NCBI GenBank assembly: GCA_001899175.1
Contig: MKVH01000024.1
Coordinates: forward strand, 372,001-436,000
Direction: 5' to 3'
Source: Candidatus Kapaibacterium thiocyanatum
GTDB lineage: Bacteria; Bacteroidota; Ignavibacteria; Kapaibacteriales; Kapaibacteriaceae
Length of the DNA: 64,000 nucleotides
This document shows, piece by piece, positions 43,372 to 46,292 of this stretch (within the stretch, counting starts at the first letter, position 1; every line of letters starts with the position of its first letter). The notes under the pieces were generated by a model that was given only the letters and a program-made list of their open reading frames with translations, ran no database searches and was not told where the DNA came from. The position numbers were made by a program, and so were the translations under genes.

Positions 43372-43700
43372 CTAGGCAAGTTTCATGATCCGCAGGTCAT
43401 GGCGCTCGTACGGCGTCATGACCTGCAATACGTATGTACCGGAACCCAGGGCCGATGTCTCCATGAGGAAGGGGGAGGCCGACCTACCCGTCATTCGAGC
43501 TACGACCCGACCGCAATATCGACCATGAAGAAGTCGACGACTTCGTCGCGGGACGTTCCGATGGTACCGTTACGATCGTCATGCCACGGTAGCGGGTGAA
43601 CGGCGATGCTGTTGACGATGCCGGAAATGGACTGCTCCCCGGCATGGACCGTAGCGATCGTAGCCAGAACGATGATCCAGACGGATGCGAAATGTGCCAT
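43372..43700 (-). pseudogene. Frameshifted mini-protein: signal peptide plus T9SS sorting domain only
   Basis: The ATG at 43700 has GGGAG seven bases upstream and begins a signal peptide (MAHFASVWIIVLATIATVHA). The frame then reads ISGIVNSIAVHPLPW ... VVDFFMVDIA and stops at TAG 43502-43500. In the next frame, from 43512 down to TAG 43374-43372, the sequence continues GRVVARMTGRSASPF, TSALGSGTYVLQVMT and DLRIMKLA, the second half of a type A T9SS sorting domain. Adding one base at about 43512 joins them as ...VDIA-GRVVAR... into a 109-residue protein. It would consist of a signal peptide and a sorting domain with almost no cargo. Whether the missing base is a sequencing error, a true mutation or programmed slippage cannot be told here. 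It lies 86 bases downstream of prfC. Confidence 0.72.
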
Positions 43701-43785
43701 TGCTGGTCTCCCGTACGCGATGCGGATCCGCGACGACAACAATGCAACGTGCCGTCAGGTTACAGCCGTCTCCTATGCACGCGCG

Positions 43786-45348
43786 TCAGGCGTCGGGCTT
43801 CTCGTTCAGTATCAGGTCCTTGGTCCGTTCCAGTGCGTAGTTGATTTCCCATTCGTTCTTGAAGACGGCGACGGGGCGTTGCTGATCGTCGAAGATGATG
43901 GGAACGGCAGTGGCGGGACGTACCTCGCTGCCCAGCCATCGGGTGCGCGTATAGGGCAGACGTTCGAGCTTGACCTTCTCGTTGTATTCGTTCTCCATGC
44001 GCCATGCGAACAGTTCGAGCTGGAGCTCGCCCACGGCCGCTACGAGGGGAACGGGATTGCCGTCGGACTCCGTGAAGATCTGCACCACACCTTCTTCCGC
44101 CAACTGGTCGATACCCTTGCGGAAGGACTTGCTGAAGGAGCCCATGGCCGGGAAGACCTTGGCATAGATTTCGGGTGCGAAGCGCGGGAAGTTCGGAATC
44201 GTGGCATCGCTCTTCGTCGTGATCGTATCGCCTACGCGGAAGAGTCCGGGATTCGTGAGGCCGATGACGTCGCCCGGGAACGCTTCGTCGATGATCTCGC
44301 GGTCCCGGCCGAAGATCTGGAACGGATAGTTGAGCTTCGTCTCCTTGCCGCTGCGCGGATGGAAGGCCGTCATGCCACGTTCGAAACGGCCGCTCACGAT
44401 GCGGACGAAGGAAATGCGGTCCCGGTGTGCCTTGTTCATGTTGGCCTGGACCTTGTAGACGAAGCCGGTGAATTCGGACGATTCGGGTTTGACGGATCCC
44501 GTCGACATGTCGAAGGCCTGCGGCGCCGGAGCGAGTTGCAGGAGCTGCTGCAGGAAGTGCTCCAGGCCGAAGTTCGTGATGGCCGAGCCCCAGTATACCG
44601 GCGTGCAGCGCTCGTGGAGATATTCGTCACGGTCGAAGGCGGGAATGACGTGGTCGACGAATTCCAGGTCCTCCAGCAGCTTGTCGTGCATCATAGGTCC
44701 GAGGGACGACCGCAGGTGTTCGCTGCGGATGTCGCCTACCTTCATCGGAGCCTTGTACTTGTTGCCTACCGTACGCTCGAACTCGTAGAACTGCTCCGCA
44801 TCACGGTCGTAGATACCTCTGAAGTCCTGCCCGTCACCGATCGGCCAGGTGCGCGGTATGGCCGTGATACCGAGTACCTGTTCGACTTCGTCCAGCAGTT
44901 CGAGCGGATTGCGGGCCGGGCGGTCCAGCTTGTTCATGAAGGTGATGATGGGAATGCCGCGGTCGCGGCAGACCTTGAAGAGCTTGATGGTCTGTTCCTG
45001 CACGCCACGGCCTGCGTCGAGAAGCATGATGGCCGAGTCCACGGCCATGAGCGTCCGATACGTATCCTCGGAGAAGTCCTGGTGACCCGGAGTGTCGAGG
45101 ATGTTCAGGAGGTGACCGTCGTATTCGACGCGCATGGCGCTCGACGAAACGGAGATACCGCGCTGCTGTTCGATCTCCATCCAGTCCGACGTCGTGGACG
45201 AGTGCTTGCCACCGGTCACGGCGCCGGCCTGGTGGATGGCCCCGGAATAGAGCAGCAGCTTCTCCGTCAGCGTCGTCTTGCCGGCGTCGGGGTGGGAGAT
45301 GATGGCCACGGTACGGCGGCGGCCTATTTCCTGTATGATGTCTGACAT
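43786..45348 (-). CDS. prfC: Peptide chain release factor 3
   Basis: A 520-residue translational GTPase (E. coli RF3 529) that recycles RF1/RF2 after termination. The G1 loop is SHPDAGKTT at 19-27, followed by GGKHSSTTSDWMEIEQQRGISVSSSAM, the G3 block DTPGHQDFSEDTYRTL, NKLDRP and the RF3-specific middle and C-terminal domains (VYWGSAITNFGLEHFL, VFPAMGSFSKSFRKGIDQL, AVGELQLELFAWRMENEY). The start is the ATG before SDIIQEIGRRR. The frame stays open upstream without matching the family. Confidence 0.96.
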   Translation of the reverse strand: MSDIIQEIGRRRTVAIISHPDAGKTTLTEKLLLYSGAIHQAGAVTGGKHSSTTSDWMEIEQQRGISVSSSAMRVEYDGHLLNILDTPGHQDFSEDTYRTLMAVDSAIMLLDAGRGVQEQTIKLFKVCRDRGIPIITFMNKLDRPARNPLELLDEVEQVLGITAIPRTWPIGDGQDFRGIYDRDAEQFYEFERTVGNKYKAPMKVGDIRSEHLRSSLGPMMHDKLLEDLEFVDHVIPAFDRDEYLHERCTPVYWGSAITNFGLEHFLQQLLQLAPAPQAFDMSTGSVKPESSEFTGFVYKVQANMNKAHRDRISFVRIVSGRFERGMTAFHPRSGKETKLNYPFQIFGRDREIIDEAFPGDVIGLTNPGLFRVGDTITTKSDATIPNFPRFAPEIYAKVFPAMGSFSKSFRKGIDQLAEEGVVQIFTESDGNPVPLVAAVGELQLELFAWRMENEYNEKVKLERLPYTRTRWLGSEVRPATAVPIIFDDQQRPVAVFKNEWEINYALERTKDLILNEKPDA

Positions 45349-45373
45349 GGATCTTCGCGATTCATTGGGAAGC

Positions 45374-45409
45374 CACAAAAATACGAGAGCCGACGCGAGG
45401 TCGGCTCTC
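45374..45409 (-). terminator. Rho-independent terminator after the 45.4-51.3 kb operon
   Basis: A ten-base stem GAGAGCCGAC/GTCGGCTCTC around a five-base loop (45385-45409) is followed on the minus strand by GTATTTTTGTGG. It lies 37 bases past the stop of the outer-membrane barrel gene and 26 bases upstream of prfC, so it ends the secreted-protein operon. Confidence 0.85.
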
Positions 45410-45446
45410 CGGGTCGTCATTAGAAGATGACTGGTCCTGAATGGGA

Positions 45447-46292
45447 TCAGCGTCCAGGCCTCAGCGGATCGCTGTTCCCCGGAGTCGTCATGATCGTGTA
45501 GAGTACGCTGATACCCGCACGGAAGGCCGAGACGCTCCACGGGACGTTCTTCGCGACGTCCGTGAACATCGGCGCATAGGTGACCTCCGGGACGAGGGCC
45601 AGCGTGCCCATGGCGTTCAGCGACATCCAGTAGCGTGCGCCCACGACGATGCCGAACTGCAGGGCGTTGACGTCCTTGACGTCGCCCGACGACGCATTGA
45701 ACGTACTGCCGCCCGTGCCGTAGTCATAGGGCAGCGTGGGGTCGGCCAGCTCTTCCTTCTGGTCGTAGGTCACGCCCGTCAGCGTACCGAGCCGCAGACC
45801 ACCCATGAGGCCGAACCTGGAATTGATGCGGTACTCCACGGCCGGTTCGAGCATGAGGGCCGTCATGGACGTGACGAGCGTATGTCGTAGCGCCGTGGTC
45901 ACGGCCTGGGAGCCGACGCGGACCGTCGTGGCCTCGTCCTTCCGCATCGTCGCACCCGACGGTGCGAACGAGAGGCGGGCGAGGATGGAGAGGTTCGTTC
46001 CGACGGGAAGTCCACCTTCGATGCCGAAGGCGATACCCGCTTTCGACGTTCCGTCGTAACCGGAGCAGCACGTCGGTGCCTGGGGCAGCGTCATGTTGCT
46101 CGCCGAATGCATGGAGAGCTGGAGGCCGCCGCCGACTCCGAGCCACAGCAACGGTGTGGCGGGTGCGTACGAGACGGGTTCCGGTTCGGGATCGGTCGGC
46201 CGGGCCGACATCGCCTCCTGTGCATGGAGCGTCGTCATCGGGAGAAGAAGCGCCACGCACGCCGTCATGATGGTCGTGATGAATGTCTGCAT
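45447..46292 (-). CDS. Outer-membrane beta-barrel protein
   Basis: A 281-residue exported protein with a signal peptide ending near TTLHAQ and a short acidic/Pro linker (RPTDPEPEPVSY). Amphipathic strands then alternate with turns (LLWLGVGGGLQLSMH, AGIAFGIEGGLPVGTNLSILARLSF, LEPAVEYRINSRFGLMGGLRLG, LQFGIVVGARYW, ALVPEVTYAPM, VSAFRAGISVLYTI). This is the pattern of PorT/OMP_b-brl barrels common in Bacteroidota. A CC pair near residue 75 is unusual. It begins ten bases after the 1659-residue T9SS protein gene and is surely cotranscribed with it. Function unknown. Confidence 0.72.
   Translation of the reverse strand: MQTFITTIMTACVALLLPMTTLHAQEAMSARPTDPEPEPVSYAPATPLLWLGVGGGLQLSMHSASNMTLPQAPTCCSGYDGTSKAGIAFGIEGGLPVGTNLSILARLSFAPSGATMRKDEATTVRVGSQAVTTALRHTLVTSMTALMLEPAVEYRINSRFGLMGGLRLGTLTGVTYDQKEELADPTLPYDYGTGGSTFNASSGDVKDVNALQFGIVVGARYWMSLNAMGTLALVPEVTYAPMFTDVAKNVPWSVSAFRAGISVLYTIMTTPGNSDPLRPGR

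Follow-up and report, generated by a model that had tools for sequence, protein, structure and literature searches.

We conclude that the short, broken open reading frame (ORF) at 43372 to 43700 is a decaying pseudogene, a reading to which we give a probability of roughly 0.86. It would comprise the start and end of an AgmC-like T9SS cargo gene, left together by an internal deletion and carrying a one-base frame offset. The ORF lies on the minus strand of the window, by which we mean the whole 64,000-nucleotide stretch analyzed here, between prfC and a pirin gene:

43786 to 45540, minus strand: prfC, release factor 3 (RF3_C domain, Pfam); intact upstream neighbor, with its alignment to genome G001 starting at 45348
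43708 to 43712, minus strand: GGGAG, ribosome-site-like, 7 nt upstream of ATG 43700, by direct reading
43372 to 43700, minus strand: the remnant as a whole, with the start and end of a T9SS cargo gene and a break in frame near 43512
43641 to 43700, minus strand: putative signal peptide of 20 aa, ending in VHA before GEQ, read by eye
43608 to 43637, minus strand: EQSISGIVNS, mature N-terminal signature of AgmC_N-type cargos, ranking first among 3149 ORFs
43515 to 43607, minus strand: first half of a type A sorting domain (IAVHPLPWHD...VDI), from profile scores
43500 to 43514, minus strand: frame break, with the TAG stop of the first frame at 43500-43502, from reading the sequence
43372 to 43512, minus strand: second half of the sorting domain in the neighboring frame (GRVVAR...GTYVLQV...RIMKLA), from profile scores
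42473 to 43354, plus strand: pirin gene (Pfam Pirin), intact convergent neighbor that also flanks the large cargo in relatives

The first frame opens at ATG 43700, runs for 66 codons on the minus strand and reads MAHFASVWIIVLATIATVHA, then GEQSISGIVNSIAVHPLPWHDD...VDIAVGS, before the stop at 43500-43502. The second half, GRVVARM...GTYVLQV...RIMKLA, is in the neighboring frame with its stop at 43372, and the two frames are offset by a single base near 43512. A first-pass annotation of this DNA had described a signal peptide, a GGGAG ribosome site and ATG 43700, followed by the first half of a type A sorting domain; all of these are present, the signal peptide as judged by eye. GC content by codon position was 0.59/0.41/0.71 for the first half and 0.57/0.49/0.72 for the second, each in its own frame, compared with 0.61/0.40/0.82 for prfC as a reference. 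Both halves thus look coding-like in their own frames.

A large cargo gene occupies the same slot in relatives

The remnant follows prfC directly on the same strand, and the pirin gene is convergent beyond it, 17 bp from its end. A DNA-level search of 40 genomes, including the source genome, located the 3' end of prfC in 17 others. The next same-strand gene after prfC encodes a large secreted protein in 9 of these 17 (G003, G010, G012, G013, G014, G016, G018, G019 and G022). Six of the proteins are complete, at 1139, 1142, 1144, 1145, 1149 and 1182 aa, while contig ends truncate those of G013, G014 and G018. The slot is empty in two genomes (G001 and G006), holds other ORFs in four (G004, G005, G007 and the distant G033) and is ended by a contig edge in two (G002 and G020). 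Two more genomes came from searching the family at the protein level: G008, with a complete copy of 1143 aa, and G021, with a cut one; in each the large protein comes right after a prfC-like ORF. The DNA similarity search matched prfC only, and no match outside the source genome reached the remnant.

As in the window, a pirin gene is convergent beyond the cargo in G003, G012, G016, G019 and G022, and in G008 as judged by the C-terminal end of pirin; Pfam confirms pirin in the window and in G012. The cargo ends 14 bp from pirin in G003 and 4 bp in G012, which favors the remnant reading; against it, the spacing is not constant, at 108 bp in G022 and 128 bp in G016, and the two genes overlap in G019. 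No pirin gene was present in the 273 bases that follow the cargo in G010 up to the contig end.

We then placed these slots on a prfC tree of 17 genomes, comprising the source genome and 16 of the 17 others (G020 was left out), with the midpoint root beside the distant G033. The window's genus, with its remnant and the empty slot of G001, falls next to the clade in which the nine large copies occur; support is moderate (93/84 and 90/83), and 3 of 14 inner branches are well supported. The simplest reading would be that the large gene stood in this slot in the family's ancestor and was then lost or reduced several times. Its former presence in the window's own genus is something we infer, because G001, the only other genome of that genus in the set, lacks the gene and has 3 bp between prfC and pirin. 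Elsewhere in G001 (C8:59441-63271), a 1276-aa protein is a relative of the large cargo along almost its full length, in two stretches; it is perhaps a moved copy or a paralogue. Taken together, the slots point to a large AgmC-like T9SS cargo family that is kept beside prfC in at least two genera and is absent from the slot in others. Our literature search, made in one open library, found no paper on AgmC-like T9SS cargos of this kind, none joining AgmC to the T9SS and none on frameshifted or truncated T9SS CTD pseudogenes.

The remnant resembles both ends of the large cargo

Two of the large slot proteins, those of G012 and G003, were scanned against family models. NF047640 (AgmC N-terminal domain) matched residues 28-378 of the former at 186 bits and residues 26-380 of the latter at 212 bits, both below the 275-bit cut-off, and the C-terminal matches to CTD models were above cut-off in G003 and just below it in G012. 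The relatives and paralogues share a mature N-terminus, QTxIGGIVNxYxxV (21 sequences); the source genome's own paralogue on contig C25 starts QPSISGIVNDY. The N-termini of G010 and G008 are shorter at the signature (QQIVNDY and QTIVNDY) and are not among the 21. We built a signature matrix from the 21 sequences and scored 3149 ORFs of at least 60 codons in all six frames of the window and 66 loci. The window ORF carries its IGGIVN-like N-terminus just past the signal peptide and ranked first of the 3149 at 12.4 bits, with the next ORF at 8.7.

Past the SISGIVNS signature the window ORF goes directly into the sorting domain, with no cargo body residues in between, and the frame is kept across the junction of signal peptide and CTD. 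No NCBIfam model matched an AgmC_N domain in the window ORF, an absence that we read as deletion. The remnant resembles the AgmC_N-type T9SS cargos beside prfC (G003, G012, G016, G019, G022 and others) in slot, strand, putative signal peptide, IGGIVN signature, C-terminal type A sorting domain and the pirin gene beyond, but it lacks about 1,030 body codons and its sorting domain is split over two frames.

For alignment and domain scoring we used a read-through sequence, in which the two halves are joined with an X at the frame break. We compared it by BLASTP with the six complete large relatives; the E-values are for a six-protein search without composition correction. In G019, remnant residues 9-33 aligned to 52-75 (E 1.2) and 29-93 to 1103-1167 (6e-6); in G003, 7-33 aligned to 9-35 (E 0.5) and 15-93 to 1046-1127 (2e-5); in G012, 25-33 aligned to 27-35 (E 5.4) and 32-94 to 1065-1127 (0.046). 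Hence the start and end of the remnant align in order to both ends of these three proteins and skip about 1,030 residues. Against our reading, the same search gave only weak N-terminal pieces for G022 and G010, with no CTD alignment, and no clear pair for G016. The N-terminal pieces are not significant alone, amounting to some 8 to 11 residues with a signature common to paralogues elsewhere in the source genome, and draw their weight from the slot and the signature rank.

Does the split C-terminal part truly resemble a sorting domain? No NCBIfam or Pfam model matched either half by itself. TIGR04183 matched residues 44-107 of the read-through sequence at 16.9 bits (E 0.0045), below the 23-bit cut-off; PF18962 gave 13.0 bits (E 0.13) against a cut-off of 27. 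On the CTDs of same-slot relatives, TIGR04183 scored 16.4 bits in G012 and 28.6 bits in G003. Using a model built from 30 CTDs of the source genome, we obtained 31.9 bits for the read-through sequence, 4.8 for the first half, 15.4 for the second and 7.4 for the best of 500 shuffles, which bears out the earlier claim of a second half displaced by one base. Because the read-through score is far above the shuffles and the composition is coding-like, the resemblance goes beyond chance. The 30 CTDs used in building scored 55.6 to 88.7 bits and the six relatives' CTDs 36.8 to 47.0; a decayed or divergent copy would be expected to score lower, as the remnant does. Once read through, its layout agrees with a type A sorting domain (TIGR04183 / PF18962), but it lies under both curated cut-offs and not in one frame. 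An intact type A cargo, with a body and a CTD scoring above cut-off in one frame, is not what the window ORF encodes.

A model of the six in-place relatives' CTDs gave the remnant 27.9 bits and the 30 other CTDs of the source genome 10.9 to 56.4, with 17 of the 30 above the remnant. By this model the remnant CTD does not side with the in-place relatives over the other CTDs of its own genome, which counts against our reading. Orthology from the CTD alone was rejected, since the model failed to separate the two.

A proposed history of deletion and frame break

We directly observe both ends and the order in which they stand, how the slot is filled in relatives, and the frame offset. From these, the history of the remnant would have run as follows. 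A cargo gene some 1,140 codons long would once have stood between prfC and the pirin gene, encoding a Sec signal peptide, an AgmC-like N-terminal domain, Ig-like stretches and a type A T9SS sorting domain. A single internal loss of about 3.1 kb would have joined the signal peptide and first mature residues to the sorting domain in frame. The sorting domain would have been split into two frames by a change of one base, at the same time or afterwards. No intermediate between a full-length cargo and the remnant was found among the genomes compared.

The coded product now ends after 66 residues. A review (PMC10202324) states that efficient secretion depends on the final 13 CTD residues and that the final 22 are enough in one CTD. 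The 66-residue product lacks the C-terminal motifs read by the T9SS; if made, it would therefore get no further than Sec export and be lost in the periplasm, and it presumably has no function. "A remnant of a larger cargo" was one of three options that had been offered for this ORF, and the relatives' slot, the N-terminal signature and the colinear BLASTP pieces all favor it. The accompanying view that the damage is recent rather than old decay holds in part: the frame break may be recent, but on our reading it came atop, or together with, the loss of some 1,030 codons. The history is ordinary, but readable, and it warns that a seemingly "cargo-less" export signal can be what is left of the two ends of a gene that collapsed, as the slot in relatives reveals.

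The frame break is probably real

Perhaps the internal deletion is real and the frame break comes from a sequencing or assembly error, such that the genome carries an intact, possibly inert, frame of signal peptide and CTD? The break does consist of a single base, the halves joined by X still fit the CTD model, and at least three other T9SS cargos of the source genome look frame-broken (C21:140065, C24:3708 and C24:355437), which could reflect indel errors. To set against this, we compared the window with G001, in which 115 ORFs were called in 160 kb and 46 matched the window (tblastn, E 1e-10), in an order colinear with most of it. These 46 are not a gene count, since they include ORFs read antisense to real genes and ORFs that align only in part. 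In none of the 46 did the alignment continue in another frame at the same place, which makes an error-ridden assembly unlikely. There is also no homopolymer of four or more at the break. Given the lack of frame-shifted G001 matches, of a homopolymer at the break and of a slippery heptamer in the first 200 nt, these comparisons suggest that the frame break is probably real, and we regard an error as an unlikely explanation.

A functional mini-protein is not supported

A more speculative reading would give the remnant a past function. The deletion would first have made an in-frame, expressed protein of 109 residues, signal peptide plus CTD, that passed cargo-free through the T9SS and took up its shuttle or sortase, and the frame break would now silence it, reversibly or only in the assembly. 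We consider this very unlikely.

We give slightly less credence still to a functional cargo-less T9SS mini-protein, be it a decoy, a sortase regulator or a PorA-like signal, made by programmed frameshifting. Such a protein would fit the in-frame junction of signal peptide and CTD and the coding-like composition of both halves. However, the first 200 nt hold no slippery heptamer of the X XXY YYZ type as used in programmed -1 frameshifting, which counts against the slippage that had been suggested; no intact short homologue is among the matches listed from other genomes; and the same-genus slot, that of G001, is empty. PorA of Porphyromonas gingivalis is likewise a CTD protein with a proposed regulatory role, affecting PorXY-SigP signaling, but as described in PMC7712824 it has a FimH-like N-terminal domain of its own, whereas the window ORF has none. 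The source genome has 124 TIGR04183 matches at E up to 1, which do not include the window ORF; frames shorter than 200 codons account for only 2 of them, each a fragment that is shifted in frame against the ORF upstream of it. We conclude that the window ORF is probably not a purpose-built mini-protein.

These two short frames, of 80 and 82 codons, were considered as fellow mini-proteins and rejected for being out of frame with the upstream ORF; a short CTD frame in G022 (124 codons) was set aside because it is at a contig end. Finally, chance resemblance within an intergenic stretch would explain why each half alone matches no library model, but it is next to negligible against 31.9 bits over a shuffle maximum of 7.4, a signature ranking first of 3149 and a matching large gene in the relatives' slot.

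Other cargos of the source genome

The T9SS cargo set of the source genome is rich, and several further loci are described here. At C21:139308-140378, a 356-codon ORF with a signal-peptide-like start and no Pfam match overlaps a T9SS sorting domain that lies in another frame, one of 82 codons at C21:140065-140235; this cargo, too, seems to be frame-broken. At C24:2899-3887, a 270-codon ORF, also without a Pfam match, ends where an out-of-frame sorting-domain ORF starts, an apparent frame break just before the CTD. At C24:354931-355670, an L-type lectin body is split over two overlapping ORFs: the first matches PF18483 and positions 60-134 of PF00139, and the second, which carries the CTD, matches positions 211-236 of PF00139; these matches are below the Pfam cut-offs. 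Lastly, C21:135300-139217 holds a tandem pair of units, about 2,000 bp apiece, that encode similar T9SS cargos of 440-447 aa; each unit also has an upstream minus-strand ORF starting VNKGMMTGVKDLLPCQQ, and that of the first unit resembles an integrase fragment.
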